Part shown: piece by piece, positions 5,501 to 29,222 of the stretch
Numbering within the stretch: the first letter of the stretch is position 1
How the letters are laid out: every line of letters starts with the position of its first letter
NCBI RefSeq assembly: GCF_907165195.1
Contig: NZ_OU015584.1
Coordinates: 3,668,978-3,732,977, forward strand
DNA: 64,000 bases
Reading direction: 5' to 3'
Source: Parvicella tangerina
Lineage (GTDB): Bacteria > Bacteroidota > Bacteroidia > Flavobacteriales_D > Parvicellaceae
Made by a program: the position numbers and the translations under genes
Notes under the pieces: model-generated
Seen by the model: the letters and a program-made list of their open reading frames with translations, nothing else
Database searches by the model: none
What the model was told of the DNA's origin: nothing

Positions 5501-6700
5501 GACCAAACCTGTAATGCTGAAAGCTATCTTGACTTCAAAGGTATCTACATCCCTGTTGATAAAGATGCTGCCCTAAAGCATGGAATCATTACCCAGGAAC
5601 AATATGCTAAATGTGTAGATACGATCAAGTGGAAGCTTTCTGGAAACGTGCTTTACAAATCTGACCTTGCTGTACTCGACCTACTAAGTAATTACGAATG
5701 GAACAGGCCGATTTACTTCGCTAGTTTGAGCAAACAAGGACTACAAGCTAATTACGGGTTATCCAAGTATATGCAGTCTGAAGGTTTAGCGTTTAAGATC
5801 ACCCCAGTTAAATTTGGAGCAAACGGGGGAGTTAACTTTGACAAGATGTATAATCTCATGATGGACAAGGAAAATGGGTTCCAGTGGGGTAACATGAAAA
5901 CTCCTGGTGTTCTTGTGGATTACTACACTATGCGCATGGTATATAACCTACGTGTTCAAATCATGAAGTTTACCGAAGACCTCATTGCTGCTGGTAAGAA
6001 CCAAATGGCCATTGATGTGCTTGACAGAGCTTTTGAAGAGATGCCAATTGAGAACAGTCAGGTAGCTGTTGATGATATTTGTTTCTATCTGTGCGCCAAT
6101 TATTATGATGCTGGTGCCATTGAAAAAGCAGATGCGCTAGCTAAAAAGTTAGCTGCTGTTAAACTGGATGAAATTAAATACTATGTGCAACAAGATGATT
6201 TCTACTTCGGACAAATGGTGAGTGAATTTGGTAAAGCAATGCAACAAATAGAATTGCTAAGAACAGCGTCTAATGGTGATGCTATGAAAGATTATCAGGA
6301 GAATATGATGAAGTATCAAACAAAATTAGAAGCACTTCAAACAGAGTATTCTCAAAGAATGACTCAACTTCAGCAAGAAGCGATGGAAAACATGTATGAT
6401 GCTGAGACGATCAAACAGAAGCAAAAAGAGATCGAAGATGAGATTATTGCCAAGCAAACCCAAATTGAGGAGCAAGCGCAATTAGATCAAAACAGCATGA
6501 ATGCTCCGGATGAAAATGCCGTAGGTTTTGCAGAACTCGGATTCTTAGCTGACACGGAATTCTTAAGCGTAATGGGAGATGCGAAGAAGAAGTTCCTTGA
6601 CACAAGGTACGACTATTATAACTTCTATGCTCAGCAAAAGAACTTCCCAAGGTCTTTTATTAGCATTTGGGACCCCATGTTTTTTGAACAACCTGAGTAG
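2570..6700 (+). CDS. DUF2723 family giant membrane protein (GT-C-like)
   Basis: A 1376-residue inner-membrane protein. The N-terminus has a membrane helix followed by LWDCGEY and VGHPPGAP motifs, the hallmark of DUF2723, a family related to GT-C/protein O-mannosyltransferase folds and widespread in Bacteroidota. Multiple membrane helices follow in the first 330 residues and again around 680-840, with a large soluble region between and after. Near the C-terminus (about residues 1240-1310) lies a Gln/Glu/Lys-rich predicted coiled coil. A role in envelope glycosylation is inferred from the fold, not shown. The polysaccharide deacetylase gene begins 5 bases downstream, so the two are probably co-transcribed. 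Confidence 0.85.
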   Translation: MGYKKINNILGWVVFAIATFVYMATLEETTSLWDCGEYITTSNKLEVGHPPGAPMFMMLGRLFSAFASPENAAYMVNAMSAISSAFAILFLFWTITMLARKISLKNGNALEDKGTQIAIFGSAAVGALAYTFTDTFWFSAVEGEVYAMSSFFTALVFWAIFKWEIEAEKHDADILAGRPTSFNPNRWLIFIAYMIGLSIGVHLLNLLAIPAIGYVIYFQKTRQVDLKGFLLTGVISMFTLGIVQTVIIPKIPDVADVFERAFTNKFGMGFNSGFIFFMLLITGLLVFGIYYTSKKGKAIWNNIIVGFTMLLIGYSSFTMIVVRSNANPPLDENNPETLSSLVSYLNRDQYGSWPLLNGPYWNSPAMGGCTEESLEAPKSSFMKAYVAELDHTFSGFTVDQAIKIQELVGPLGIPLQIQKGKNGTIGVSTPEFKDWVYYNGEYVHPNNTIAEELGDPLRYELSFINMFEYDEYQAELEAVNEELAANNIDFHLTLLEAQPQYVNTMAGKAGERKYDPDYTTFLPRMYRQGKGSEYMAWVNYDEHEHTVPLPKVPGVPGSDRADQVFQLEQAVNQVQDPAAKQQYTEYANMLKEDGVYKPNFWNENIAYMFKYQLDWMYFRYFMWNFSGRQNDLQGYGLNGGGRALLDGNWITGVKLLDSQRLGNQENLPAFITENVGYNRYFMLPLILGLIGLVFHSVKAPKDMFTVLLLFFFTGLAIVLYLNQKPMEPRERDYAYAASFYAFAIWIGLGVYALFDAVKQFDPKKLMQLAGITIGGSLFILIVEYAVRETGTPMGASLLYISLIGVGTYVLFAFLGDKLKNPTMTSSLATLLCLAVPIILAVENWDDHDRSNRTTARDFAYNYLLSCSEKSEGGKGAILFTNGDNDTFPLWYLQEVEEERTDVRVANMSLLGTDWHINQMKRQAYDSEPLEISMNEFSYRNGTRDYVIIQENPKKAGKYYSAKEALAFILDDNHKIDNDQTCNAESYLDFKGIYIPVDKDAALKHGIITQEQYAKCVDTIKWKLSGNVLYKSDLAVLDLLSNYEWNRPIYFASLSKQGLQANYGLSKYMQSEGLAFKITPVKFGANGGVNFDKMYNLMMDKENGFQWGNMKTPGVLVDYYTMRMVYNLRVQIMKFTEDLIAAGKNQMAIDVLDRAFEEMPIENSQVAVDDICFYLCANYYDAGAIEKADALAKKLAAVKLDEIKYYVQQDDFYFGQMVSEFGKAMQQIELLRTASNGDAMKDYQENMMKYQTKLEALQTEYSQRMTQLQQEAMENMYDAETIKQKQKEIEDEIIAKQTQIEEQAQLDQNSMNAPDENAVGFAELGFLADTEFLSVMGDAKKKFLDTRYDYYNFYAQQKNFPRSFISIWDPMFFEQPE

Positions 6701-6705
6701 TTAAC

Positions 6706-7323
6706 TTGAACTATTTTGTTAAAACACCTAAACTACTGCATTCCTTATACAGGGATGCAGTTTGGTTTATACCCAATGCTGAAAACAAAATTTTCCTAAC
6801 GTTTGATGATGGACCAGTTGAAGGAATTACATCCTCTTGTTTAGATATCCTAGCAACCCATGATGTGAAGGCTACCTTCTTTTGTGTTGGGGAGAACATT
6901 ATTAACAACAAGTCAATATTTGAACGTATAAAGAAAGAAGGCCATACAGTTGGTCATCATTCTTATAATCACCTGAAAGGTTGGAAAACGCAGAATGAAG
7001 TATACTTTGAGAACGTAAAACAAGGTGCAAACCTCGTGAACACTCCGTTATTCAGACCGCCTTACGGCAAAATAAAACGTAGTCAAATCAATCATCTGAA
7101 ATCAGCTTACAAGATCATCATGTGGGATGTATTGAGTGGTGATTTTGACCCCAAAGTGTCTACAGATCAATGTGTCAAAAACGTGCTTAAACACACCGAG
7201 TCTGGCTCTATAATTGTGATGCACGACAACGAAAAATGTGGTAAAAAAATGCTATTAGCCCTACCAGAGATTATAACTAATCTAAAGTCTAGCGGCTTTC
7301 AATTTAGCACACTACCTATTTAA
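6706..7323 (+). CDS. polysaccharide deacetylase family protein (NodB homology domain)
   Basis: A 205-residue carbohydrate esterase family 4 protein, expected to deacetylate peptidoglycan or an exopolysaccharide. Seen: the metal-binding TFDDGP motif (about residues 31-36), the HHSYNH motif supplying the His ligands, the RPPYG motif, and a late IVMHD motif. No signal peptide is evident. The start is a TTG at 6706; there is no in-frame ATG or GTG before the catalytic motif, and the N-terminal YFVKTP segment is plausible for the family. The gene follows the DUF2723 gene closely and its 3' end overlaps the convergent PKD gene by 12 bases. Confidence 0.88.
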   Translation: MNYFVKTPKLLHSLYRDAVWFIPNAENKIFLTFDDGPVEGITSSCLDILATHDVKATFFCVGENIINNKSIFERIKKEGHTVGHHSYNHLKGWKTQNEVYFENVKQGANLVNTPLFRPPYGKIKRSQINHLKSAYKIIMWDVLSGDFDPKVSTDQCVKNVLKHTESGSIIVMHDNEKCGKKMLLALPEIITNLKSSGFQFSTLPI

Positions 7324-8469
7324 AGTAACCGTTCCTGAGTGTTCGTATTTCTTACCGTCTATCCCTTTAGCAGAAATAACCACAACGTAAGTGCCTGTTG
7401 GAAGTTCGTCTCCAAACTTATCTCGTCCATCCCAGCCCTCGTCCATTGAACTTGATTGGTGCAAGATTTCTCCTTTAGAATTTAAAATTGCCAGATTAAA
7501 GCTCGCAATATTCTTTCCTTCCACTTTATACACATCATTTACACCGTCAAAATTTGGTGTGAAGACATTTGGAATCTTGGTCAGCGCACTATTCGCCAGC
7601 ACTTCAATCACTCTAAAGTCTTGATATTGATTCCCACTATCATCAGTAATCGTCAACGTTACTGTGTACTTACCATACTTATCAAACGTATGCGTTGGGC
7701 TTTCCTCTTCCGTAGAAGTTCCATCTCCAAAATCCCAACTCACTTTACCTTTCTCACTGTATTGAGCAAAAGAAACCTCCAAAGGAGCATAACCACCCAC
7801 AGGAGCCGCAACAATCGATGCTATTATATCATCTTCTTCCACCTCTTCAATGGTTGGTTTTACCATATTCTCATTTTCAGTTTCCTTATTTTGATCAGAG
7901 TTGGGAGTCGTGTACGATTCATTTGGAGGGGTCATAAAATACTCTACCCAAGAATTTCCGTAATCATGTGTTGACTCCTCAACCACTACTACGGTTTTCT
8001 TAGGTTTGTCATCAGACTCGTTCTTATTCACTGGGTCTGGTGTTGCAGAAGGTTTGGTGATATCATCCACCATTTTTCTATCCTCCTGACTTGCGGGAAT
8101 TGCTGCTATAATCGTATTTTCAGTTACTTCTGTAAGGTGGGTAACATCATTACTTTCAGCAGCGGGCTGTTTAACAGTTGTTTCGACCACTTGAATGGAA
8201 TCAGTTACTAACTTATCCCCTTTCAAGTTAGTGTACAATAATGTTCCTGCAACGCTAACTACGCAGGCAACTCCCGCCAGACCCAGGTAGGTTAGTAAGC
8301 TAGAACCACCTTTTGCCGCAGCAGCTCCAGTAGAACCACCAACACCAGCGCCTGACTGATTGATTCCCTTGGAAATAGAAGACCACATGGCATCATTTAC
8401 TGGCACTTCCATGTCTTCCAATCCTGTTCGGAATAATTCCTCAATATTTTCGAAGTCTCTATGACTCAT
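7312..8469 (-). CDS. membrane anti-sigma-like protein with PKD and gliding-type C-terminal domains
   Basis: A 385-residue protein. A cytoplasmic N-terminus (about 1-55) of the kind found in anti-sigma-like partners of Bacteroidota ECF factors is followed by one membrane helix (about 58-80), a Thr/Glu-rich linker, a PKD domain (about 215-290, with WDFGDG), and a CHU_C/gliding motility-associated C-terminal domain (about 295-385, starting IPNVFTPN). Its ATG lies inside the end of the sigma factor gene (11-base overlap), indicating translational coupling. I infer that it holds the sigma factor at the membrane and senses the envelope. There is no N-terminal signal peptide, so the type B-like domain cannot work as an ordinary T9SS export tag. 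Confidence 0.75.
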   Translation of the reverse strand: MSHRDFENIEELFRTGLEDMEVPVNDAMWSSISKGINQSGAGVGGSTGAAAAKGGSSLLTYLGLAGVACVVSVAGTLLYTNLKGDKLVTDSIQVVETTVKQPAAESNDVTHLTEVTENTIIAAIPASQEDRKMVDDITKPSATPDPVNKNESDDKPKKTVVVVEESTHDYGNSWVEYFMTPPNESYTTPNSDQNKETENENMVKPTIEEVEEDDIIASIVAAPVGGYAPLEVSFAQYSEKGKVSWDFGDGTSTEEESPTHTFDKYGKYTVTLTITDDSGNQYQDFRVIEVLANSALTKIPNVFTPNFDGVNDVYKVEGKNIASFNLAILNSKGEILHQSSSMDEGWDGRDKFGDELPTGTYVVVISAKGIDGKKYEHSGTVTLNR

Positions 8470-9022
8470 ATCCTAATTTTTGTGTTCTCAAAATATCTCT
8501 CAACATTGCTTTCGCTCTGCTAAATTGAGATTTTGAGGTGCTTACAGTAATCTCTAGTTCCTCTGCAATTTCCTTGTGCGAGTAGCCTTCAATCACGTAA
8601 AGGTTAAAAACTGTTCGGTAACCTACCGGTATTTGTTGAAGTATTTTAAGAAGATCTTTTGCCGCCAGTTCACTCAACACCGTTTCATTGGTGGTTAAAG
8701 AATAGGAGTAATCATCAATGTCCACATTTCCCTGATACTTTTTTGTCCTTCTGATCTCATCAAGACAAGTGTTCACCATGACTCTTCGCATCCAACCCTC
8801 AAAGGATCCTTCACCTTTGTAGGAAACCAGTTTTTCAAAGATCTTCACAAACCCATCCTGCAACATATCCTGCGCTTCCTCTTGATTTCTCGAATAACGC
8901 ATGCAAACACCCAACAGTTTAGGTCCGAATTTCTCGAAAAGCATTTTCTGAGCACGAGAATCTCCTTTCAAACAAGCCTCCACCAATTGCTCATTGCTCA
9001 TATCACGCCTTTCTATTGTCAT
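8459..9022 (-). CDS. ECF-type RNA polymerase sigma-70 factor
   Basis: A 187-residue sigma factor with region 2 (about 10-80, including the DMLQDGFVKIF core-binding motif) and region 4 (about 125-180, helix-turn-helix with GYSHKEIAEEL). It directs RNA polymerase to a specific regulon, probably envelope-related given the coupled membrane partner downstream. A near-consensus -7 box (TATCTTTA at 9034-9027, minus strand) lies four bases before the ATG, suggesting a very short leader. An internal Met at residue 8 is an alternative start. Confidence 0.93.
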   Translation of the reverse strand: MTIERRDMSNEQLVEACLKGDSRAQKMLFEKFGPKLLGVCMRYSRNQEEAQDMLQDGFVKIFEKLVSYKGEGSFEGWMRRVMVNTCLDEIRRTKKYQGNVDIDDYSYSLTTNETVLSELAAKDLLKILQQIPVGYRTVFNLYVIEGYSHKEIAEELEITVSTSKSQFSRAKAMLRDILRTQKLGYES

Positions 9023-9124
9023 AGACTAAAGATATAAATAAAAGGTTGCACCTACTTTTCAAAAAAATGAAATCTATTGATGCATGGCTCAAACAATGTT
9101 TTTTGCATATTTGTTCTTCAAGAG

Positions 9125-9838
9125 ATGACCAAGTCACAATTACTGATCATATTATATATCCTGCTCTCTATTATTGAAATCACAGGAGACGTGCTTGACA
9201 ATCAGCTGATGGTATTTGCCACTAAGCCTCTACTAATGCCTACGCTATTAATATGGTTTTATACGGAGATTAAAAGAAAATCGAAATTTAAAAATATCAT
9301 TGCGGGATCGATCGTTGCAGCTTTCTTTGGAGATACATTTCTGATGTTTGTTCCTTACAATGATCTCTTCTTTCTTCTCGGGCTAGGCTCCTTCTTAATT
9401 GGTCAGTTACTTTATGGATGGGGATTTATTGGAAACATCAAAGATTCAAAGAAAGAAGGAAGTAAACCATTTAACCTCACCTTAACTATTGTATTCGCAG
9501 CGTTTTATGGAGGCCTAATGAGATTCTTGTATCCAAACTTAATAAAAGTTGAGGAAGGCGCTTTCCTTATTCCTGTTCTTATTTATGGCTTAGCAATTTG
9601 TTTTATGGGATTAACAGCAGGTTTTAGGTATAACAAAGTGAATCACTCCTCTTTCCTGTTTGCTTTTCTTGGGGCAATCATCTTTGTGGTCTCAGACACC
9701 TGTATTGCCCTTGATAAATTTTATTTCCCTGGGGGCTTTCCATACGCACAAGCCATCATTATGATTACCTATTGCACGGCTCAATACCTCTTGGTTAAAG
9801 GGAGTATACTACACCTTCAAAGAAACCCGAGTGCATAA
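9125..9838 (+). CDS. YhhN/TMEM86 family protein, putative lysoplasmalogenase
   Basis: A 237-residue integral membrane protein with about eight helices. The KPLLMPTLLIW segment, the acidic FFGDTFLMF motif and the LGLGSFLIGQLLY motif fit the YhhN family, whose characterised members hydrolyse the vinyl-ether bond of lysoplasmalogens. An upstream in-frame TTG at 9077 exists. The ATG at 9125 is preferred because it begins directly before the first membrane helix and a near-consensus -7 box (CATATTTG, 9106-9113) sits just upstream. Confidence 0.82.
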   Translation: MTKSQLLIILYILLSIIEITGDVLDNQLMVFATKPLLMPTLLIWFYTEIKRKSKFKNIIAGSIVAAFFGDTFLMFVPYNDLFFLLGLGSFLIGQLLYGWGFIGNIKDSKKEGSKPFNLTLTIVFAAFYGGLMRFLYPNLIKVEEGAFLIPVLIYGLAICFMGLTAGFRYNKVNHSSFLFAFLGAIIFVVSDTCIALDKFYFPGGFPYAQAIIMITYCTAQYLLVKGSILHLQRNPSA

Positions 9839-9851
9839 GGACTCCTTCAGA

Positions 9852-9883
9852 TTTGGAGAAATAACAATAAACATCTACATTTG
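9852..9883 (+). promoter_or_regulatory. hppA promoter (-33 and -7 elements)
   Basis: TTTG at 9852-9855 and a perfect TACATTTG at 9876-9883 are separated by 20 bases, the clearest full Bacteroidota-type promoter in the window. It predicts a leader of about 25 bases before the ATG at 9914. Confidence 0.7.
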
Positions 9884-9913
9884 CCCCCCTAAATTTTGAA
9901 ATTAACAACAACT

Positions 9914-12259
9914 ATGGACGAATTATTAATATGGATATTGCCTGTTTTTGGTATTATCGGTCTGGGATACATGTTATATCTAGCGAGATGGGTTAAAGCC
10001 CAAGATGCAGGTAATGACAGAATGAAGAAAATTGCTGCTTACGTGCAGGAAGGAGCTATGGCTTTCTTGAAAGCAGAGTACCGCATGCTTGCAATTTTTG
10101 TCGTAATCGCTGGTGCGGCTTTAGGGTGGATATCTTATGCAGTTGACACCACACACTGGTTGATTATTGTTGCTTTTGTGATTGGTGCTGTTTTCTCAGC
10201 CATTGCTGGAAACATTGGTATGCGCATTGCTACTGATGCAAACGTAAGAACTGCTGAAGCTGCAAGGACTAGCTTACCTAAGGCACTAAAGGTTTCATTC
10301 ACTGGAGGTACCGTTATGGGACTCGGAGTTGCTGGGTTAGCTGTTTTTGGATTAAGCATCATCTTTGCTATTCTTGCAGCATCCTGGGTGACTGAACCTT
10401 CTAATCAGTTCTATGGTCAAATGACTATGGTTTTAGAAACGCTGGCTGGGTTCTCTTTAGGAGCTGAATCCATTGCATTATTCGCAAGAGTTGGCGGAGG
10501 AATCTATACGAAAGCAGCTGATGTTGGAGCTGACCTTGTAGGAAAGGTTGAGGCAGGTATTCCTGAGGATGACCCAAGAAATCCTGCTACGATTGCTGAT
10601 AACGTAGGAGACAACGTGGGAGATGTTGCTGGTATGGGTGCTGACCTTTTTGGATCTTATGTGGCTACTATGCTTGCCGCCATGGTTCTTGGTAACTATG
10701 CAATTAATGCATACCACGTGAATAGTGACGCTGACCTAACTGCTTTTCAGGGTATGGGGCCTATCTTACTACCTGTATTAATTGCAGGATTGGGAATCAT
10801 TTTCTCTATCATAGGTACTCTTTTCATCCGAATTAAAGATAACAGTGCAAAGGAGAGACAGGTTCAGGGAGCCTTGAACATGGGGAACTGGAGCGCAATT
10901 ATCTTAACGGGAATCGCGTCATACTTTGTAATTGATTGGATGCTTCCAGAAAAGCTTTATCTGACGGCTATTGAAGTTAAACTAAACGGAATTGACTACA
11001 GCGATGTAGGAGCTAGTTTCACATCTGCTCGAGTTTTTATTGCTGTTGTTATTGGTTTAGTTGTAGGTGGATTGATCTCTTTCCTAACCGAGTACTATAC
11101 TGGTTTAGGTAAACGTCCGGTAATGAACATCATCAAGAACTCATCTACTGGTGCTGCCACAAATATCATTGCTGGACTTTCTACAGGTATGATGTCTACT
11201 TTCTTGCCTATTATTCTTTTTGCTTTAGCTATCTGGGGTGCTTATGCTGCCGCTGGTTTCTACGGGATCTCATTGGCTGCTTCCGCAATGATGGCTACTA
11301 CAGCAATGCAGTTAGCAATTGATGCTTTTGGACCAATTGCAGATAATGCAGGTGGTATTGCTGAGATGAGTGAACTTCCAAAAGAAGTAAGAGAAAGAAC
11401 AGACATTCTTGACTCAGTAGGTAATACAACTGCAGCAATTGGTAAAGGATTTGCCATTGCTTCTGCTGCACTTACAGCTTTAGCACTATTCGCTGCCTAT
11501 GTAACTTTTACGGGAATTGACGGAATTAACATATTTAAAGCTCCTGTATTGGCTATGCTTTTTATTGGAGGTATGATTCCTGTGGTTTTCTCAGCAATGG
11601 CGATGAGCTCAGTTGGTAAGGCTGCCATGGCCATGGTAAAAGAGGTAAGAAGACAGTTCAAGGAGATCAAAGGAATCATGGAAGGGAAAAATGAGCCTGA
11701 GTATGGGAAATGTGTGGAGATTTCTACTGACGCTGCATTGAGAGAAATGATGCTTCCAGGGATTTTGACTATTATTACTCCTATTATAGTTGGTTTCTTA
11801 CCTATGTTGTTTGGATATTCAGCTAAAGACTGTGCTGAAATGCTAGGTGCTTACATGGCTGGTGTTACAGTTTCTGGTGTTCTTTGGGCTATCTTCCAAA
11901 ACAACGCTGGTGGTGCTTGGGATAACGCTAAAAAATCTTTCGAAGCTGGTGTTAAAATTGATGGAAAAATGACTTACAAAGGGTCTGATGCCCACAAAGC
12001 AGCGGTAACGGGTGATACAGTTGGTGATCCTTTCAAAGACACTTCTGGACCATCTATGAACATCTTGATCAAGTTAACCTGTCTAGTTGGTCTTGTAGTC
12101 GCTCCTCTTCTTGGAGAAGGACACAGTACTGAAGAGCACGCTGAACCGGTGATTGAAGAAACTGAAGGTGGTGAGAACGAAGGTGAAGAAACTACTTCTG
12201 AAGAAGGAGAAACATCATCTGTTGAATCGGAAGAACCTACGTTTTCTTGGATCTCTTAA
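9914..12259 (+). CDS. hppA: membrane-bound ion-translocating pyrophosphatase, K+-dependent type
   Basis: A 781-residue, roughly 16-helix inner-membrane pump that hydrolyses pyrophosphate and exports Na+ and/or H+. Seen: the [20 protein letters not shown]-type substrate loop, the DNVGDNVGD motif (about residues 228-236), and [10 protein letters not shown] (about 502-511). Ala rather than Lys in the last motif is the known signature of the K+-dependent subclass. Na+ versus H+ specificity is not decided here. The last 50 or so residues form an unusual Glu/Ser-rich acidic tail after the final helix. ATG 9914 is preferred over the in-frame TTG at 9896 on codon grounds. Confidence 0.96.
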
Positions 12260-13320: not shown

Positions 13321-14878
13321 CAGCTGGTAGCATTTTTAGTACGATGGATAACCTTCCTTCTTCTGTGAGTTCTTCGAATGACTTGCTAAGTGTTATACTC
13401 TCATGACCTTTAGCCTCAATGATCATTTGATAGCGCTCCATCGGCATAGAAAGTATAATGAAATTTCCCTGTCCGTTGGTACGATAAATTCCGTTCAAGT
13501 TCTTATCCTCTTCATTGATGATCGTGATCTTTGCATTTAGCGGTTTGCCCTGCTCATCAGAAATGTTGCCCTTGATCACTGTTTTAAAACTTTCATGATC
13601 GTAAATATTAACCAAATAAATATCATCATCACCAAAGCCTCCCTCTCGGTCTGACGAAAAAAAGGCTTGTTGAGAATTTGGAGAAACTCTATAATAGAGA
13701 TCATGACCCAATGAATTTATAGGATATCCAATATTCTCTGGCAGTGACCAGGTTCCATCATCAGAGAGTTTCATCGAGTAGATATCAAACCCTCCTATTC
13801 CAATTCTTCCGTCTGATGAAAAGTAAAGCGTACGATCATCTGCATGCAAGAAAGGAGCATCTTCATTACCATCTGTATTGACCAAGGCTCCCATATTGAT
13901 TTCTCTCCCCCATGCTCCCGTTGGTAACCTCTTCGCGTAATACAAATCAAAACCTCCGTATCCACCAGGTCGATTTGAACTAAAAATGATCATATTACCA
14001 TCCGTTGACAAACATGCACTGGACTCAATACTCTTACTGTTAATACCTTCTGGCAAGATTTTTCCGTTGCTCAAATTACCTGTTGAATCACAATCCGCTT
14101 CATACAAATCTCCTTGAACAATATTCTCAGGATTGGTCTTAAAATACAGAAACTTCCTACCATCATAGCTAATCGAAACGGCAGCATCGTGTAGTTTAGA
14201 ATTGATCTCACTGCAGTTTCTTGGCTCCTCCCACGATCCATTCTTCATTGGCGAAAAGAAAACATCTTGGAAAAAATTCCCTAGATGATCCTTTTGCTGA
14301 GAAGTATTGTTTGACCTTCTACTTGTGTAGAACATCCCTGATTTATCCGGCATAAGCACGGGAACTGATTCTTGACTCTCTGTGTTTATCGTTCCTCCCA
14401 AATTATTAATCTCCACTTTTCGCTCTGCAACCATCAACTCTCTTGCCTCATAAGCAATGTTTAGGTAATTCAGAATGTCATCATCATCTACCGTTTTTTT
14501 CTTGTCTAACAATATGGTTTGCAACGCATTCACCGCATCCTCAAACCTTCCATGTATCAAATATGCTCTTCCTAAGTAATAGTAATAATTCTCTAAACTT
14601 TTTGTATTGTAAACATTCTCGATCAACTCGAGCGCTTCCCATTCGTTACTCTTTTGGTTCAATTTACAGATCGCTAATCCAAACCGAACCTCATCATCAT
14701 TAGGGTATTTCTTGTAAAGTGCCGAAAACCGTTCATTAGCATCAATGAAGTCTTCATACTCAATGGATACAAAACCTTTTTTTAGTTCTTTTTTGTCTGC
14801 TTTCTCCAATTTTTGAGCGTGAAAACTACCAAGACACATTACCATAGTCGCAATAATTATAAACCCACTTCTCATCAT
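13310..14878 (-). CDS. TPR / PD40 beta-propeller protein of a T9SS operon (PorE-like without OmpA domain)
   Basis: A 522-residue protein with a signal peptide (about 1-21), TPR-like helices (about 25-160), PD40/WD40-like propeller blades (about 170-420, repeats such as FSSNRPGGYGGFDLYYA, YFSSDGRIGIGGFDIY and FFSSDREGGFGDDDIY), and a carboxypeptidase-regulatory/CNA-B-like domain at the end. It resembles the N-terminal part of PorE, a T9SS component that links the secretion ring to peptidoglycan, but it lacks the C-terminal OmpA domain that binds peptidoglycan. It overlaps the upstream cargo gene by four bases and the downstream PorP/SprF gene by 11. Confidence 0.82.
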   Translation of the reverse strand: MMRSGFIIIATMVMCLGSFHAQKLEKADKKELKKGFVSIEYEDFIDANERFSALYKKYPNDDEVRFGLAICKLNQKSNEWEALELIENVYNTKSLENYYYYLGRAYLIHGRFEDAVNALQTILLDKKKTVDDDDILNYLNIAYEARELMVAERKVEINNLGGTINTESQESVPVLMPDKSGMFYTSRRSNNTSQQKDHLGNFFQDVFFSPMKNGSWEEPRNCSEINSKLHDAAVSISYDGRKFLYFKTNPENIVQGDLYEADCDSTGNLSNGKILPEGINSKSIESSACLSTDGNMIIFSSNRPGGYGGFDLYYAKRLPTGAWGREINMGALVNTDGNEDAPFLHADDRTLYFSSDGRIGIGGFDIYSMKLSDDGTWSLPENIGYPINSLGHDLYYRVSPNSQQAFFSSDREGGFGDDDIYLVNIYDHESFKTVIKGNISDEQGKPLNAKITIINEEDKNLNGIYRTNGQGNFIILSMPMERYQMIIEAKGHESITLSKSFEELTEEGRLSIVLKMLPADAP

Positions 14879-17800
14879 CTTAATAAATGTATTTCACCAA
14901 CATAAGTTTCTTCATTTCCGTTAGTGTATTTAACTCGTGCTTTCCAAATATATACATCTTGTTGACACAGCTGCTCTCGGTAGTATCCGTCCCATCCAAC
15001 TGCAACATCGAAACTTTCAAAGATCAACTCTCCCCAGCGATTGAAAATTGACAAATGATAGTCCTCCACTCCTTTAAACACTGGAAAGAAAACGTCATTG
15101 TCGACTGAACTTGGATCATACGAGCCTCCGGTTGGTCCACTCGTATTGGGTGTAAATGCATTTGGAAACTCAATTTCACCACCCGTCTCAGCTAATACCG
15201 CCTGCTCAAACGTTACGGTATCTGGACAGTTATTGGCATTGTTTGCGATCAACGTGATATCATATAAACCTTCATTTGCATAAAAATGCTCTGGATGCTC
15301 ATCTGTAGTGGTATTACCATCGCCAAAATCCCAAATATAATCATCAGAATAACTTGAAAGGTTATAAAATTGAACTGGCTCATCTGGTACATAAACTTCT
15401 GACGGAGCATATTGGAAAAATGCAACGGCATACTCGTAAACGTGAACTGAATCCATCATTACAAAGGTCTCAACCCCTCCCGGACCCGTGAGGGTTACCG
15501 TAACCGTATAGTCTCCAGCTTGATGATAAGTGTAATATGGGTTTTGTAAAGTCGAGAACCCACCATCACCAAAATCCCAGTAATAACTATCCACATAAAG
15601 TGAGCTGTCGTAAAATTGTATGGTAACAGGTCTACATCCTTCTCCTGATCCATAAATATGCGGTTCAGGCAAAGGAGGAATAATAGTAATCGTTTGGGTG
15701 CTGGTATCGCTACAAAAATCACTAGCAACAATCAATTCAATTTCGAAATCACCCCAGGTTGGATAAACATGGTCTGCGGGAGTAAACCCTATAGCCGTAT
15801 CTCCATCGCCAAAGTTCCAATAATACTCCCAGGAACCTGTTGTACTTGCATTATTGAAACTAACTGTTGTTGAAGGGTAGGTTTGCGTAAAAGGGGATGG
15901 TGTGAATAATGAATTTGGAACCGGGAAAACCAGAATATCCTGATAGGCCGTATCCTTACATCCCTCGGCAGATGTAGCGATTAACTGAACGGTATAAATC
16001 GAATCGGTAGTACCAGGGTTAAATAAGAACTCGTTAGGGTTTTGTTGTGTGTCCATGAAGCCATTATCAAAATCCCATAACCATTGCGCTGCATTTGTAG
16101 ATTGATCGTTGAAGATGGCATGAAATGGTGTACATCCCGCTGTATCCACAGTAAAATCAGCTGTTATTTCTGGATGAACCGTGATCGCCATCGTTGCCGT
16201 ATCCGCACACCCATTTGGAGAAGAAACGACCAAAGTTGGGTTATAAATGATGTCTGAACTTGTTTGATTTTCATAGAAATACGGGAAGTTCGTTAATGTT
16301 GAGGTTGAAGTATTGCCGTCATCAAAATCCCAGTCGTAAAAAGTTCCGTCTATTGAGTTATTTTGGAAGGCGAAATTCAACGGAGCACAACCTACAGACA
16401 CAGAAGGTAAAAACTGCGCAATAGGTGTCGGATAAATAAGCATCTCCTGATAAGCCGTATCTCGACAGCCATTCACCGAAGAAGCTATCATTTCTACGGT
16501 GTAAATGACATCCGTTGAAGTTGGGTTGTTGAATGTCTGCGTTGGGTTTTGCAAAATACTGGAGAAACCATTTCCAAAATCCCATGACCATTGATCTGCA
16601 TTTTGGGACTGATCAGTAAAGTCCCCAATAAAAGGTTCACAACCTACGGTATCAACGGTGAAATCAGCAATGACTTCTGGGTATACCGTCACAGCAAGAG
16701 TTGAAGTATCCCTACAGCCATCATCAGTGATTGCAATTAATGAAGGCTCCAAAACTAAATTTGAATTTGATGGGTTAGCGTACGTATAATTATGAGATGC
16801 GAGGGTAGTAGCAGAAGTATTTCCATCATCATAATCCCACTGAAAGGAAGTAGCTCCGATCGAAGTATTCTCAAACGTAACCGTGAACGGGCCACAACCA
16901 TCCGTCACAGGTGCAGTGAACTGAGATGTTGGATTGGGAAACACTTTTACTTGTCCATAATTCGTGTCCTGACAGCCAAATGGAGAAGTAGCAATCAACT
17001 CTACTATGTAGGTGACATCATTGGTAGTTGCATTCGTGTAAACATGACTCGGTGAAACTCCCATCGCTGAATTACCATCGCCAAAATCCCATTCATACGT
17101 CACGGCACCAACCACGGTTGGAAAATTAACCGTCAACGGACTACAGCCTGAATCTGGAACACTAGAAAAATCAAAATCGGGCAACGGGTAGACGGTGACA
17201 TCTTGCGTGCTGGTATCTGTACAGCCATTTGGTGAGGTCACCACAAGTTCTACGTTGTAAACATCTATAAACTGAGTGGTGTTAATGTATTGATGAGTTG
17301 TACTGTATGCTACGTCCGTATTTCCATCACCAAAATCCCACTCGTATGTTTGACCAACAGTACTTAGATTGGTAAACACTACATCAAGTGGTGCACAACC
17401 AGGGAAACCGTTATGAGAAAAAGCAGAATTGACACCATAGTACACATCAACGGAAGCATACGCAGTATCGGTACACCCAAATGTAGTGCTGGCTATCATT
17501 TCAATTTGATAGGTTGTATCTGAAGCAAATGTATTTTGAAATACGTGTAATGGATCCAAATTGGTTGAGCCTCCGCCATCTCCAAAGTTCCACTGGTACC
17601 CAGTAGCTCCCGTACTTTGGTTAGTAAATTGAACTGGTAGAGACGGACACCCTGAATTGATATTCTGCGTAAAAGCTGCCGAAGGTATGGGCTCTACAGT
17701 AACTGAAATGGTATCCGTATTACTGCAGTGTGCGGTGGCCACTTCCAAAATAATGTCATAAGAACCATTGGCAAGGTAAGTGGTTGTTGGGTTCTGTTGG

Positions 17801-19428
17801 GTAGAATTGTCCCCATTTCCAAAATCCCAGTCCCAGGCTACAATTGGATCTCCTGGCGAAGAGGTAGACTGATCCGTAAAAATCGCATCTGCATTCTGAC
17901 AAACACTTTGGGGCAGAAAATCAACCACTGGGGATTGATAAACATTAATGGTTCCGGTAGCTACGTCTGTGCATCCATTAAGCGCAGTAACAGTTAAGGT
18001 AGGTTGATACGTTCCTGATGCTGTATAATTCTGGCTGGGAGGAACTAGTCCGTTGAACGTATTTCCGTTATCAAAGTTCCAGTCCCAATCTATCGCATCT
18101 AGTGAAGCATCTGTAAAATTGACGGTAAGTTGATCACAGCCTTCGTTGTTGTCTAACACAAAGTTTGCAGACGGTATTGGTAATACATGAATATCCAATG
18201 AGGAGGTATCCGTACAACCATTTGCACCACCAATACTTGCAGCCAATTGTATCGTATAATCCCCTGGAGCTACATAAGCATGAGCGGGGTTAGCACCAAG
18301 CGTTTGCCAACCACTTCCGTCTCCAAAATTCCAACTTAGTGTGTTCGCTCCTCCAGTTGAAGCATCCGATGCAGTGATGTTTGTATTGGCGCAAGTAGTG
18401 TCCGTTGACAGCGTAAAGGCCGAGGTGGGAGGGGGTACAATTTGAATGGTGATATATGCCGTATCCTGCCCACAAAAATTACTGTCAATCATCATTACAT
18501 CGTAGGTGCCTAGTCCAGGATAATCAATTACATGTGGAAAAGTAGGTGGCCATGGTGTCCAGTCAACAATACTATCATAACCCAATCCCCAATAGTCACC
18601 AAAATTCCAATATTCTTGTCGTTGAAATGTATTACCTTGTGCCAAACAGTTTCGCTGGGTGGTATTTTCAAAAGAAACAGTTGTCTCTGGAAAGCAAAGT
18701 AGCACATCAGAAGCAGTAATGGCGGCCTGGTCAAGATCCCAGATTCGAATCGGATTGAAAGTAGCCTGACTAAATCCACCTTGAGCTATATTACATTGGT
18801 TCTCTGCAACCAGAGAAACCTGAGTCTCACAATCAACTGTTCCTTGCAGATAATCATGAATAACTGTATCTCCCGAATTGGTGTAATCTAAAACAACAGC
18901 AGGAGAGCCGTCACCAAAATCCCAGGTAAAAACTGTGGTAGGTGAAACATTTGTACTCGAATTAATAAATGACAATGGAGCTGGCGCACACGTTTGGGTA
19001 ACTCCCCCAAATGGAATTTGTATTGATGCCGTTGTAGGCTCCTCCATAATCACGGTACCAGTGATCACACATGCCGATGATGTTTCGGTAAAAGTAACCG
19101 TGTAAGAACCCACGGTAGCAGCATAAGTGTGAGATAAAACCTGTGGAGGCGCAAAGGACGCTCCTGACTCGATCGGACTTCCATCTCCCCAATCAATGGT
19201 GTAAGCTCCAAAAGTCGTAGTCGACTGAAAATTCAACGTGTAATCCGTTCCAAAACAACTTAACCAGGTTGGATTTGGAGTCAACACACCATCTCCATCA
19301 TAGGCCTCACACTGTCCATACGAATCCACTGCCCCACCCAAGAAAATGAGACCACAAAAAGTTAAGGAAACCCTGAATTTATTTAAGAAACCTACACACA
19401 CCTTATAAAAATAAGACATTAATCTCAT
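14875..19428 (-). CDS. giant PKD-repeat surface protein with T9SS type B sorting domain
   Basis: A 1517-residue secreted protein with an N-terminal signal region, about 16 tandem PKD-like domains (each marked by a variant of WDFGDGN; I count them from about residue 55 to 1400), and a C-terminal gliding motility-associated (CHU_C) domain beginning FPNAFTPNTSG and ending WGELIFESF...GEIHLLR. This is the architecture of SprB-like adhesins exported by T9SS. The downstream genes encode a PorE-like propeller protein and PorP/SprF. The protein may be displayed on the cell surface for adhesion or gliding; which one is not shown. A second Met at residue 4 is an alternative start. Confidence 0.92.
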   Translation of the reverse strand: MRLMSYFYKVCVGFLNKFRVSLTFCGLIFLGGAVDSYGQCEAYDGDGVLTPNPTWLSCFGTDYTLNFQSTTTFGAYTIDWGDGSPIESGASFAPPQVLSHTYAATVGSYTVTFTETSSACVITGTVIMEEPTTASIQIPFGGVTQTCAPAPLSFINSSTNVSPTTVFTWDFGDGSPAVVLDYTNSGDTVIHDYLQGTVDCETQVSLVAENQCNIAQGGFSQATFNPIRIWDLDQAAITASDVLLCFPETTVSFENTTQRNCLAQGNTFQRQEYWNFGDYWGLGYDSIVDWTPWPPTFPHVIDYPGLGTYDVMMIDSNFCGQDTAYITIQIVPPPTSAFTLSTDTTCANTNITASDASTGGANTLSWNFGDGSGWQTLGANPAHAYVAPGDYTIQLAASIGGANGCTDTSSLDIHVLPIPSANFVLDNNEGCDQLTVNFTDASLDAIDWDWNFDNGNTFNGLVPPSQNYTASGTYQPTLTVTALNGCTDVATGTINVYQSPVVDFLPQSVCQNADAIFTDQSTSSPGDPIVAWDWDFGNGDNSTQQNPTTTYLANGSYDIILEVATAHCSNTDTISVTVEPIPSAAFTQNINSGCPSLPVQFTNQSTGATGYQWNFGDGGGSTNLDPLHVFQNTFASDTTYQIEMIASTTFGCTDTAYASVDVYYGVNSAFSHNGFPGCAPLDVVFTNLSTVGQTYEWDFGDGNTDVAYSTTHQYINTTQFIDVYNVELVVTSPNGCTDTSTQDVTVYPLPDFDFSSVPDSGCSPLTVNFPTVVGAVTYEWDFGDGNSAMGVSPSHVYTNATTNDVTYIVELIATSPFGCQDTNYGQVKVFPNPTSQFTAPVTDGCGPFTVTFENTSIGATSFQWDYDDGNTSATTLASHNYTYANPSNSNLVLEPSLIAITDDGCRDTSTLAVTVYPEVIADFTVDTVGCEPFIGDFTDQSQNADQWSWDFGNGFSSILQNPTQTFNNPTSTDVIYTVEMIASSVNGCRDTAYQEMLIYPTPIAQFLPSVSVGCAPLNFAFQNNSIDGTFYDWDFDDGNTSTSTLTNFPYFYENQTSSDIIYNPTLVVSSPNGCADTATMAITVHPEITADFTVDTAGCTPFHAIFNDQSTNAAQWLWDFDNGFMDTQQNPNEFLFNPGTTDSIYTVQLIATSAEGCKDTAYQDILVFPVPNSLFTPSPFTQTYPSTTVSFNNASTTGSWEYYWNFGDGDTAIGFTPADHVYPTWGDFEIELIVASDFCSDTSTQTITIIPPLPEPHIYGSGEGCRPVTIQFYDSSLYVDSYYWDFGDGGFSTLQNPYYTYHQAGDYTVTVTLTGPGGVETFVMMDSVHVYEYAVAFFQYAPSEVYVPDEPVQFYNLSSYSDDYIWDFGDGNTTTDEHPEHFYANEGLYDITLIANNANNCPDTVTFEQAVLAETGGEIEFPNAFTPNTSGPTGGSYDPSSVDNDVFFPVFKGVEDYHLSIFNRWGELIFESFDVAVGWDGYYREQLCQQDVYIWKARVKYTNGNEETYVGEIHLLR

Positions 19429-19498: not shown

Positions 19499-20026
19499 TT
19501 AATAAGCATACATCACGTAATTAATCACGGTAGAAGACTTACTAGACACCTCACTTGGAATATCTTCCCCAGGAAAGATGTCTATGTTCCACTCATCAGT
19601 TGGTTCATACGTCATACCGTCAATATAGTAATCATCACCATAGTCACCACTGCAATCACCGTAACACTCAGGGTATAAATACAAATCTTCACCACTTAAA
19701 TTGAGCACTCCACACCCAAAGCCAACGGGATCGACCTCTATTTCGTCTCCATCTTCTGTTTCATGCGTATAGCTAAAGAAAACTACCTGAGTTCTATACG
19801 TTAACTCTCCATCTTCCTCGTATACCACATAGACCCTTGGAGCCCAAATACCTAGGACTATTGCACCAATTACAATGATCAGAGAAATCACTCCTGGAAT
19901 AATTTCGTTGTCGGGAAACTTCTTTTTGAAAACGGCTGCCATCAAACCCATTAAAACAATTGGCATGACAATGATTAAGATGATAAATAAAGTAAAGCTC
20001 ATAGTTAGCATGTTTTTGTTAAACAT
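19499..20026 (-). CDS. hypothetical membrane protein with acidic C-terminal region
   Basis: A 175-residue protein that I do not recognise. Two hydrophobic helices (about residues 8-32 and 43-63) are separated by a basic AVFKKKFPDNE loop. The remaining 110 residues are acidic, Tyr- and Asp-rich and contain three Cys. Met 6 or Met 9 are alternative starts. It lies between the T9SS operon and the WD40-caspase gene, transcribed away from the latter. Confidence 0.6.
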   Translation of the reverse strand: MFNKNMLTMSFTLFIILIIVMPIVLMGLMAAVFKKKFPDNEIIPGVISLIIVIGAIVLGIWAPRVYVVYEEDGELTYRTQVVFFSYTHETEDGDEIEVDPVGFGCGVLNLSGEDLYLYPECYGDCSGDYGDDYYIDGMTYEPTDEWNIDIFPGEDIPSEVSSKSSTVINYVMYAY

Positions 20027-20092
20027 AACAAAAAGTCACGATCGAATAACATCAATAATACAAGCGATAGTCATAACATGACGATTGATGCT

Positions 20093-20100
20093 TACTTTTG
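20093..20100 (+). promoter_or_regulatory. -7 box of the WD40-caspase gene
   Basis: TACTTTTG matches TAnnTTTG exactly and ends five bases before an ATG at 20106. That places the likely transcript start at or next to the ATG and supports 20106, not 20182, as the true start. Confidence 0.6.
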
Positions 20101-20105
20101 TTTGA

Positions 20106-23100
20106 ATGAAAACGATTATATCCCTTACTACTTACTCTTTTCATCTCTCAGGGAATAGCTCAAGAAAACTATTCTATTGAGATGCAAAACGGTCACACTC
20201 TTCCCGTTTCATGTGTTGCTGTTCATCCTAAACTTCCCATCGTTGCAACAGGAAGTCAAGATCATTCGGTCATACTTTGGAACATAGAAACCCAAAAACA
20301 ATTGGGCTCGCTTCATCTAGCTACTTCACCTATATCAAGTATTCGCTTTAATGGATCGGGGTCTCTGTTATTGATGCTAATCAACAATGGAGAAGTAATT
20401 CTTTATGATCGGGAAGAAGCCAAAATTCTGGCAAGGAGAACCTTCTCCTCAGAACTCGGTTATATCAAATCTGTGGCATTGACAGGCGATAATCGCAGCA
20501 TTATTGTGGGGTCTAACCGTGATGAATTATTTATTTGGAATATAGCAACCAATCAAACGTATAACCTCACTAAAGGGTTTGACACCCGGGTTAACAAAAC
20601 TATCACTGACCAAACAAGCACTTACCTCATTGATTTCAATGGAGCCAACGGTTTTGCGCTTATCAATACGCTATCCAACGACACTGTTTTGATTCCATTC
20701 GACAAACCTCAAAACTATGCATTCAACCCTCAAGATGACCTATTAGCTGTGGGGTCTAGAAAATTATTTGCTAAGGTTTACCAACCTTCAACCGGAAAGT
20801 TAATAGCCACCTTAGCGCCAAACGCTGAAAATAAGTGTGACGGATGTAATACGTATGTATTTTGGAGTCACAACGGGAAACAGTTAGCAACTTATGATAA
20901 TAAGAACGGACTTTATATTTGGGAAAAGCCATTTAAAAAGCCCTTGTTTCATGTCGAACTTTCAGAGCGGATTAATTTTTACAGCTATTCGAAAAACAAT
21001 CGGTATATTCTACTCTCTAATGACAAAACAGTGTGGCTCATTGATTCTGAAACTGGGAAGATAAAGCTGACACACAATAGTCACTACCTTACTGACTTTC
21101 AACCTGTACTAGAGCATGAAGCCAAGTCTTTTTTCCTACCAGGAGAATCTTTCACCTTACAGAAAATCAGTTTGAACGGCAAGATTTTGGCTTCTTATAA
21201 AGGGGCGAATAATCAGACTTCCAATCAGCTCCCTTTTGACTATTTAGATTGGTATCAATCAGGAAGTTTAAAGCACTTTAAACAACAAATGCCTATGGTG
21301 GTCTCCCGCGAAAAGGACTACCTTGTTTTAGGAAGAATAGGCCAAGAAGTTCAAAAACTTGATCTCAAAAGCGGACATATTTCTTCACTTTTTAGCAGTA
21401 ATAAAGTGTTCACCGCATTAGCCTTGTCTAAAAACGATAGCCTTTTGGCAGCTGGTGATGCAGATGGGAACTTGATCATCTATGACTTGACTCAACGAAT
21501 AATCGTCAAAGAACTAGAAGTACACAGCAATATGATCTTTGACCTTTCCTTTGATAAGGCCAACGACAAGGTAATTTCGAGCGGTTGGGAAGGGCGAACT
21601 TATGAAATTGATCTACATACTGGAGAAAAGAAATTTATTCAAGAAAGCCCTTATGCGCACAATCAGATTGAAACAGACGGAAAGAACCTATACTACTTCA
21701 AGACAAGTTTAGATAACACCATAACCATGTATGAAAGGGATAGCCATCAAGAAGTTAGAACGTTTCTTGGTCATACCGGCAAGATCAACAGCCTCTATTA
21801 TGACGCGTCAAACCAACTATTGTATAGCAGCTCACAAGACGGATCCGTAAGGATTTGGGACATCAAGTCTGGACTACTAACTAACAAGTTTTTTCTCAGG
21901 AACAAAACGGCCGCATTGAGTATTTGCAAACATCCAGACTCTCCAAAATTGTTTGTTGGCGGAATGGATAGAAAGCTATACATCATTGACTTGGAAGAAG
22001 CAACTCTGAGTACTACTGAAGTAAATCATACCAGTGGAATTGCAAACATTCAATTCATTCAGAACGACCTGATAGCCCTTAGAGGTCTTGATGGTGTGGT
22101 GCAGTTTGTACATTTACAAAATCCTAAACACTCCGTCTCCCTTTTTGCATATCCAAGTGGTGACTGGTTGGCTTTAGAACCCTCGTCTATGCAGTTTGAT
22201 GGCACCAAAACAGCAATGAAACATATTCATCTCGTAAAAGGCGAGAAGACAAAAGAAATTGGGAATCTATTCAACCAATACTACTCACCCGGAATTATTG
22301 AGCGATTTCTAAAAGGTGACACTATCAATCAGGAAGAGGGACGGAATATTGAAGAAATTTTGGATAACAGCATTGACTTTCAACTTACCCTAAAAGACAA
22401 GTATGGAGCACTTGTGTTGCCCACACCAGACTCAATGTACAGGGCGCATAGTCAAAAAATCACTCTCCAAGTGGATTTTCAGCAGCGGAAGAAGTATCAA
22501 GACATTCTCGTTTACAACAATCAGAAACTGGTATTAACGGAATCATCAGACGAAGAAGTAGCCTTTCGTGGCACAAATCAGCGTGTTATCATTGAGGTTC
22601 CTTTGGCTCCTCAGAAAAATGAAATTGAAGTTAAAGTTATTGACCAGCAAAACATTGAACATATTCACGATCCATTAATCATTAACTATGATACCGTAGC
22701 TGCTAAAATGGATCTTTTCATTATTTCTCTTGGCATTAATAAATATGAGAATAAAAGCTACGATTTACGCTATGCAAAAAACGATGCTTCAGCCTTTCTC
22801 GAGTCACTTTCCACCATCTCTAACCCACTTTATGAGGAGGTTTACACCTATTCATTAACCGATAAAAAAGTAACTAAATCAAATGTACTGAAAACAATTG
22901 ATGAGATTTCAAAAAAGATTGGTCCAGAAGATGTCTTTGTATTCTACTATGCTGGTCACGGGGTGATGTATGGTAACGATAAAGCAACCGAAGATTTTTT
23001 TCTCGTCATGAGCGATGTCACCAATTTATATGGTGGTATTGAAGTACTCTCTGAAAAAGGATTGTCCTCAGAAGAGATTTTATCAATTTCCAAGAATATC

Positions 23101-23487
23101 CCTGCTCAAAAACAAGTCTTTTTCTTGGACGCATGTCAGTCTGGAGGTGCTTTGAATGTCCTTTCCACGCGTGGTGTTTCAAGAGAAAAAACAATTGCAC
23201 AGCTTGCAAGGAGTTCTGGCACATATTTCATAACAGCGAGCCAGGATGTAGAATACGCGAATGAATCAAGTAGCCTAGAGCATGGTTTATTCACCTACGC
23301 TGTTCTAGAGATCCTGACTGGAAATGCAACTATTACAGATGACAGAATTGTGTCTATAGGAGAACTCAAAAGCTATGTAGAGACACGTGTACCTGAACTA
23401 TCGGAACAGTTTAAAACAAGCCCACAATACCCAACGGGTTATGCTTTCGGCAATGATTTTCCAATAGGTGTTTTAGATACCGAATAG
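20106..23487 (+). CDS. exported WD40-repeat / caspase (peptidase C14) protein, apparent +1 frameshift near start
   Basis: The uninterrupted frame runs from 20182 (1101 residues): WD40-like blades (about 1-650) followed by a caspase domain (about 845-1095) with catalytic His in YYAGHG (about 925) and catalytic Cys in DACQSGG (about 984). Upstream of 20182 the same frame stays open back to 20110 and encodes KRLYPLLLTLFISQGIAQ, a textbook signal peptide, but has no start codon. The ATG at 20106 is one base out of frame because of four As at 20109-20112; with three As the protein would start MKRLYPLLL. The protein is thus probably exported. Family members of this architecture cut after Lys/Arg or Asp or serve in signalling; the substrate is unknown. 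Its 3' end overlaps the next gene by 15 bases. Confidence 0.85.
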
Positions 23488-27320: not shown

Positions 27321-29222
27321 TTAGTACGCTCTTTCGTTTTTACCTTCTATGTAGTTAATATAAGCTTTATTTACAACCTTATTTCCTCCTGGAGTTGGAT
27401 AGTTCCCACTAAAATACCAGTCTCCCTTGTTACCTGGACATGCCTGATGAAGTCCACTAATGCTTTGGTAGATAATTTTCACCTCTGCATTCACATCGCT
27501 GTGTTTTAATAACTGCGCAATTCTTTCGGATATTTCATCTTCGGTAAAAGGCTCATAGATTTCTTTGACACAGTTTACCATTTGGTCATTTGGCAATTCC
27601 ATTTGCTTCAGACACTTTTGATATACTTCATCCAGTAATTTTTCCATTCCTCTTTCCTTAATCAAGCTAACGGCCGCCTGAAATGCTATAAAATCTCCCA
27701 TTTTAGCCATGTCGATTCCATAACAATCCGGGTACCTAATTTGTGGAGCACTGGAAACGACAACAATCATCTTCGGTTCTAACCTATCCAAAATTCTCAA
27801 CACACTTTGCCGCAATGTAGTCCCTCGCACTATAGAATCATCGAGCACCACAATATTATCCTCATTTCTTTTGATAGATCCATAGGTAATGTCGTACACA
27901 TGCGCAACCATATCATCTCTCGCATCATCCTGTGTTATAAACGTTCTGAGCTTTGCATCTTTGACCATGATCTTATCAACACGAGTTCGCATGGCCAAAA
28001 TATCTTTTATCTCCTGGTCATCAGCCCCAGGATTAAGCGCTTTCAACTTCTTTACTTTAACCGTGTCCAGATAGTCTTCGGTAGCTTTCAACATTCCATA
28101 ATATGCCATTTCTGCCGTGTTCGGAATGAATGAAAAGACTGTATTCTTCATGTCATAATCAATCGCTTCCAGCACTTTAGGCGTGACTAAACGACCTAAC
28201 TCTAATCGTTCTTGATAGATGTCTTTATCTGTTCCTCTCGAGAAATAAATCCGTTCAAATGAACACTGGGCCTCAGGTAATGGCTCTCTAACCAGTACTT
28301 CACTAGACTCACCCACTTTAGGAATTATAAGTGCATGGCCAGGTTTCACCTCTTGTATATCCTCCCATTTTAAATTAAAAGCGGTTTGAATCACAGGTCT
28401 TTCTGAAGCAACCACAGCATATTCATCATTTTCAAACCAAAATGCCGGACGAATACCCGATGGATCTCTCAGCACAAATGCGTCTCCATGACCAATCATT
28501 CCAGCCATTGCGTAACCACCATCCCAATCAACAGCTGAATTCTTAAGAATGTTTTGGATATTCATGTTCTTTGCGATCTGCTCAGAAATCTCTTGATAGG
28601 AGTACCCTAACGACTTATACTTTTCGAATAATCGCTGATTCTCTTCATCCAAATAATGGCCTATCTTTTCCAAGATCGTGACCGTATCAGACTTTTCCTT
28701 GGGATGCTGACCAATGTCAACCAAAAGACCAAACAACTGATCTACGTTAGTCATGTTGAAGTTTCCAGCTAGGACTAAGTTACGGGTCATCCAGTTATTT
28801 TGTCTCAAAAAAGGGTGACAATTCTCCACCTTATTCTTCCCGTAGGTACCATATCTTAGATGACCTAAAAAGACCTCACCAGTAAATGCCTCATTTTGCT
28901 TGAGCCAAGCCGTATCCTTAAGCTTTTCAGGGCTTTCTTCCTCAAGAATCTTAAACCGATTATTCACATAAGAGAAAAGATCTTGAATAGGCTTTTGATC
29001 CACACTTCTATGACGACTGATATACCTTGTCCCTGGAGGCATATCCAATTTAATATTGGCCAACCCTGCACCATCTTGCCCCCTATTGTGTTGCTTCTCC
29101 ATGAGGAGATACATTTTAGTGAGGGCCCAAAAAGGTGTGCCGTATTTTTCAAGGTAGAAATCTAGCGGTTTCTTCAATTTTAGAAGAGCGATACCGCATT
29201 CGTGTTGGAGAAAATCACTCAT
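27321..29222 (-). CDS. purF: amidophosphoribosyltransferase, long Bacteroidota type
   Basis: A 633-residue class II glutamine amidotransferase/phosphoribosyltransferase for the first step of purine synthesis (PRPP + Gln to phosphoribosylamine). The nucleophile Cys is residue 9 in HECGIALL, so an eight-residue propeptide must be removed, as in Bacillus-type PurF. The PRPP motif is VVLDDSIVRGTT. The protein is about 130-160 residues longer than typical PurF, with an insert before the PRPP site and a C-terminal extension (YQSISGLHQACPG...). Bacteroidota often carry this long paralog beside a standard PurF; whether it is the only PurF of this genome cannot be seen. A perfect -7 box lies six bases upstream. 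Confidence 0.88.
   Translation of the reverse strand: MSDFLQHECGIALLKLKKPLDFYLEKYGTPFWALTKMYLLMEKQHNRGQDGAGLANIKLDMPPGTRYISRHRSVDQKPIQDLFSYVNNRFKILEEESPEKLKDTAWLKQNEAFTGEVFLGHLRYGTYGKNKVENCHPFLRQNNWMTRNLVLAGNFNMTNVDQLFGLLVDIGQHPKEKSDTVTILEKIGHYLDEENQRLFEKYKSLGYSYQEISEQIAKNMNIQNILKNSAVDWDGGYAMAGMIGHGDAFVLRDPSGIRPAFWFENDEYAVVASERPVIQTAFNLKWEDIQEVKPGHALIIPKVGESSEVLVREPLPEAQCSFERIYFSRGTDKDIYQERLELGRLVTPKVLEAIDYDMKNTVFSFIPNTAEMAYYGMLKATEDYLDTVKVKKLKALNPGADDQEIKDILAMRTRVDKIMVKDAKLRTFITQDDARDDMVAHVYDITYGSIKRNEDNIVVLDDSIVRGTTLRQSVLRILDRLEPKMIVVVSSAPQIRYPDCYGIDMAKMGDFIAFQAAVSLIKERGMEKLLDEVYQKCLKQMELPNDQMVNCVKEIYEPFTEDEISERIAQLLKHSDVNAEVKIIYQSISGLHQACPGNKGDWYFSGNYPTPGGNKVVNKAYINYIEGKNERAY

Follow-up and report, generated by a model that had tools for sequence, protein, structure and literature searches.

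A WD40-caspase gene of Parvicella tangerina with a conserved leader out of frame with its probable start codon

In which compartment does a caspase-like protein work when its signal peptide and its start codon lie in different frames? The question is raised by a WD40-caspase gene in a 64,000-nucleotide stretch of the Parvicella tangerina genome (NZ_OU015584.1, positions 3,668,978 to 3,732,977; hereafter the window). The first-pass annotation had proposed that a leader, KRLYPLLLTLFISQGIAQ, lies in the coding frame of this gene with no start codon, one base out of frame with ATG 20106 at an AAAA run, and sequence and translation confirm this arrangement (Table 1). The caspase frame is closed upstream by an in-frame TGA at 20107-20109, and ATG, GTG and TTG are all absent between that stop and 20182. 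The frame opened by ATG 20106 reads MKTIISLTTYSFHLSGNSSRKLFY and is closed by TGA 20178-20180. A single base parts this stop from ATG 20182 (TGA-G-ATG), a point absent from the first-pass annotation. As written, the sequence is thus predicted to give no exported product, as had been supposed, since the leader has no in-frame start. Over 20110-20181, the hexamer score is 0.125 per codon in the caspase frame versus -0.163 in the frame of ATG 20106; 1.4% of out-of-frame stretches reach the former value, which speaks against a chance reading but is itself low for true coding sequence (7.7th percentile).

Table 1. Features of the start region and body of the WD40-caspase gene, in window coordinates
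Feature	Position	Strand	Basis
Putative -7 promoter element TACTTTTG, Bacteroidota sigma-A type	20093..20100	+	Sequence; consensus TAHHTTTG (PMC6847099, available text)
Predicted transcription start of a leaderless mRNA, from ATG 20106 or one base earlier	20105..20106	+	Box spacing
Short ORF from ATG 20106, 24 codons and TGA 20178-20180	20106..20180	+	Translation
AAAA run, parting point of the two frames	20109..20112	+	Sequence
Predicted start-less signal peptide KRLYPLLLTLFISQGIAQ, caspase frame	20110..20163	+	Translation; homolog alignment; AlphaFold helix 3-16
ENYSIE, linker between leader and first WD40 blade	20164..20181	+	Translation; alignment; low model confidence
WD40-caspase open frame of 1101 codons with WD40 propeller regions and C-terminal Peptidase_C14, His and Cys	20182..23487	+	Domain search; model

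The body of the gene encodes what its sequence identifies as a member of the Peptidase_C14 caspase family. The domain scores 60.0 bits against a Pfam cut-off of 21.4, and the catalytic motifs YYAGHG (His 950) and DACQSG (Cys 1009; numbering from 20110) are present, with both residues invariant in all 19 aligned rows. The match to NCBIfam NF047832 (caspase, EACC1-associated type) reached 78.8 bits, under the curated cut-off of 140. In sequence searches against solved structures the caspase domain found weak matches, GSU0716 (3bij, E 0.0025) and metacaspase-1 (7qp0, E 0.006). The 50 Foldseek matches listed resemble WD40 proteins, including Apaf-1, because of the propellers only. According to the available text of a survey of prokaryotic caspase homologs (metacaspases and orthocaspases, PF00656 Peptidase_C14), the most frequent partner domain is WD40 (10.9%, 73 sequences), and an N-terminal helix, possibly a signal peptide, occurs in many members (PMC3501461). 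The window gene resembles the WD40 proteins described there in its above-threshold C14 domain, its retained His and Cys, and its repeats. Unlike the homologs of that description, it has its WD40 propellers ahead of the caspase domain and a leader whose frame does not match that of the start. Close by, at 14875-19428 (-), lies a large protein with PKD repeats and a CHU_C type IX secretion domain.

What would the protein lose by starting at 20182? The AlphaFold model (mean pLDDT 78.3, pTM 0.47) places a helix at residues 3-16, within the leader. Residues 15-25 fall below pLDDT 50 and contain no strand, the first strand is at 33-38, and the Met of 20182 is residue 25. By this model, a start at 20182 would cost only the leader and ENYSIE, with no predicted strand.

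The first-pass suspicion of a conserved signal peptide was borne out by comparison with homologs. Sequence searches found 47 loci, mostly in Bacteroidota and nearest in Flavobacteriales; seven (L061, L072, L083, L085, L086, L088, L089) were dropped for a missing 5' end, a short ORF or a score under 230 bits. The remaining 40 loci gave 43 full-length ORFs with a 5' end. A leader, defined as a basic residue, a hydrophobic stretch and small residues at the cut, precedes the first WD40 blade directly in 41 of these 43; the two that fail the rule, L060 and L076, have a leader by eye. In all 43, again by eye, an upstream start codon shares its frame. The rule is permissive, being passed by 137 of 351 sampled ORFs of the host genome and by the start at 20182 as well, and therefore supports export rather than proving it. 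It replaced an automatic procedure that aligned each ORF locally with the first blade; this placed 20 of 43 leaders, most of the other 23 being missed because the alignment shifted to later blades or extended past the end. Better evidence comes from the homolog alignment itself: in 18 homologs, the leader immediately ahead of the first blade aligns with the window stretch. Leaders are also present in all seven paralogs taken from the host genome. Besides the window gene, the host chromosome (G000:C1, L093-L099) thus carries at least seven large caspase-like genes, each with a leader, and most of these end in similar C-terminal tails (PTxRxEN..D..W).

These comparisons mark the leader as the ancestral, conserved N terminus of the WD40-caspase family, as far as sequence can tell. 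In the exported Bacteroidota WD40-caspase family, a grouping made here, the window gene shares the leader ahead of the first blade and lacks the in-frame join of start and leader, with TGA at 20107-20109 and no start before 20182. The same alignment bears on a natural start at 20182, in which the protein would be cytoplasmic, the leader-like frame would be a chance resemblance and the mRNA would have a leader of about 76 nt. Such a length is within the published range (means of 52 and 65 nt). Homologs without a leader peptide that begin at 20182, the finding that the first-pass annotation had named as speaking against its proposal, did not appear: none of the 18 aligned homologs starts at that column, and a Met stands there only in L046. 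With the 18 aligned leaders, the seven paralogs and a box spacing that fits ATG 20106, a natural start at 20182 appears already contradicted, and we regard it as very improbable.

Is ATG 20106 then the native start? The available text on Flavobacterium johnsoniae describes a -7 box, TAHHTTTG, lying 4-5 nt from the transcription start (PMC6847099), so genes with such a box 4-7 nt before their ATG should be leaderless. Our count covered the window together with 20 sampled stretches (L106-L125), 464 kb and 367 ORFs in all, and took every TAHHTTTG in the 120 nt before a first ATG. Of 93 boxes, 22 sit 4-7 nt before the ATG, 15 of them at 4-5 nt; judging by the 15 boxes at 60-120 nt, about one would be expected at 4-7 nt. 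A second cluster comprises 33 boxes at 15-29 nt. For five control motifs, the count at 4-7 nt was 0 to 4. The first-pass annotation had pointed to a perfect box ahead of ATG 20106; this box, TACTTTTG, is present, lies 5 nt from the ATG and thus falls on the genome's own peak, and it is the only TAHHTTTG on the + strand of 19900-20300. The caspase gene entered the survey with ATG 20182 (81 nt) and adds nothing to that peak. What changes is the meaning of the box, which by its position reads as a -7 promoter element of the sigma-A type, serving a leaderless mRNA, and not as a ribosome signal. On this evidence ATG 20106 is very probably the native start.

The box spacing matches that of leaderless mRNAs described in the accessible text for F. 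johnsoniae, F. psychrophilum and B. thetaiotaomicron, with TAHHTTTG at -7 and 4-5 nt to the start. By sequence, the survey suggests leaderless mRNAs for about a quarter of the box-bearing genes in the host genome. In contrast, the published shares in these accounts form a small minority: about 3.7% (<10 nt), 5.5% and 13% (<=10 nt) in three Bacteroidota (PMC6847099, PMC9723704, PMC7366714). The window genes with a close box include purF-like and holB-like genes. Boxes 4-7 nt before the ATG are seen in the window at 27321-29222 (-), 39630-40172 (+), 41172-42296 (+) and 51043-51927 (+).

Judged from its sequence, the frame is broken between a likely genuine start and a genuine leader, and the displacement of the leader from its start is well supported. 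How did it arise? We favor a real and recent one-base indel in the first codons, to which we assign a probability a little above one half (about 0.56); the sequence alone does not fix its exact position within the start region. The native gene would have produced a leaderless mRNA starting at ATG 20106 and continuing directly into a Sec-type signal peptide, with an envelope-targeted product. Orthologs in the genus are consistent with this reading. The ortholog in genome G002 (L046, CAJYBK010000019.1) is intact, with the leader in frame with its ATG; it has the same architecture as the window gene, with 38% identity over the length, and, unlike the window gene, no offset between start and leader. 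The G003 ortholog (L100, 6631-10066, -) carries two frameshifts, of which one lies near GGGGGG and the other outside long runs. The G001 ortholog (L101, about 4119-7515, -) is a decayed pseudogene: 36 stops interrupt its match, and DACQSG, which holds the catalytic Cys, can no longer be read. Orthology was assessed by a tree for G002 and G003, with G001 left out; these two, the window gene and two further Flavobacteriales form a clade of five rows (support 100/100). The erosion of the gene in the genus supports a real indel, as does the quality of the host assembly, a single contig of 3,980,026 bases that is 99.83% complete.

The gene is otherwise undamaged, which counts against a real indel. 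Its 1101 codons are open, the catalytic residues are kept, the leader is undecayed, and its branch to the common node (0.76) is not accelerated relative to those of its sister genes (0.63-0.91). These features fit an error of sequencing or assembly equally well; the living strain would then have start and leader in one frame and make an ordinary exported WD40-caspase. The sampled 464 kb also contain a second offset between start and leader, at an (AT)6 run, a pattern expected of scattered indel errors. However, the single contig and its completeness speak against such errors, the run here is only four bases long, and of the 12 frame-switch candidates inspected nearly all proved to be gene junctions or noise and one may be a broken gene, although the survey is insensitive. 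We rank the indel first by judgement rather than by measurement, and hold an error to be the less probable explanation, though a serious contender.

How far can the frame-switch survey be taken? A first detector made 77 calls and found 102 of 120 test indels; a stricter one made 50 calls and recovered 34% of test indels at a gain of at least 8. Over the 464 kb, the survey is too insensitive to bound the rate of assembly error. It called position 20137 in the window at low gain (3.8). Of 14 frame-switch pairs, the three that were read out (L120, L109, L125) were set aside by eye as ordinary neighboring genes. In L109, a coding-like stretch without an early start, perhaps a broken gene, lies at 8877-9263 (-) beside a 268-codon gene at 9267-10112 (-). 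The offset at the (AT)6 run concerns L122, 1210-2406 (-) (G000:C1:3301210-3302406), a lipoprotein that by eye resembles an efflux adaptor. Its leader shares the frame of its body, and the upstream ATGAAAAAG is out of frame across the run. The offset is possibly phase variation or other true variation, or an assembly error.

If the indel is real, what would the cell make? The indel would have put the start out of frame with the leader, so that ribosomes loading at the 5' AUG would read 24 codons, stop at 20178-20180 and possibly restart one base on, at ATG 20182. The restart product would be a low level of a leader-less, cytoplasmic two-propeller WD40-caspase, and export would be lost. The arrangement of the frames, the ancestral leader, the box spacing and the stop-to-start geometry are observed; real indel, restart and cytoplasmic product are all steps that we infer. 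Stop-to-ATG distances of -4 to +3 occur in 56 of 130 same-strand neighbors in the host genome, exactly +1 in seven of them, and so a restart at 20182 is plausible. Counting against it, the -3 position of ATG 20182 is G and not A, the base described as a positive determinant in the available text on F. johnsoniae (PMC6847099).

The arrangement could also be programmed, with ribosome or RNA polymerase slippage on AAAA giving two localization forms from one gene. Within the run, pairing at the lysine AAA codon could be re-established one base on, and the geometry offers a second route at 20182. However, four A are few for slippage, and we know of no stop or rare codon that would stall the ribosome there. 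Conserved offsets are absent from the 43 full-length homologous ORFs, in none of which the start is out of frame with the leader by eye. We consider programmed recoding the least probable of the explanations weighed here. Scarcely more probable is a localization switch, in which a cytoplasmic caspase would come from the stop-restart at 20182 and an exported one from slippage on AAAA or from reversible mutation. If it did occur, a family otherwise confined to the envelope would gain a form inside the cell. Our literature search for a frameshifted or phase-variable leader, or for a bacterial WD40-caspase in defense, found nothing on these subjects.

Does the protein take part in intracellular defense, as the first-pass annotation had raised? 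PADLOC matched none of the eight neighboring proteins, and it matched the caspase itself only through one caspase model and one repeat model. Since the family appears exported and PADLOC finds no defense neighbors, the link to intracellular defense is unsupported.

What does the offset mean for the organism and the family? Most likely, an exported enzyme is lost or misplaced; should the base be an error, there would be no consequence at all. If the recent one-base indel is real, the gene would be a natural experiment in which a caspase of an exported family stays in the cytoplasm, its body intact and its geometry perhaps permitting expression, in a genus that is losing the gene. In the case of an error, the gene illustrates how one wrong base can assign an enzyme to the wrong compartment in annotation: gene callers would place the start at 20182, and the protein would be taken for cytoplasmic. 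In both cases the family as a whole seems to work outside the cytoplasm, an argument against interpreting such WD40-caspases as intracellular defense.
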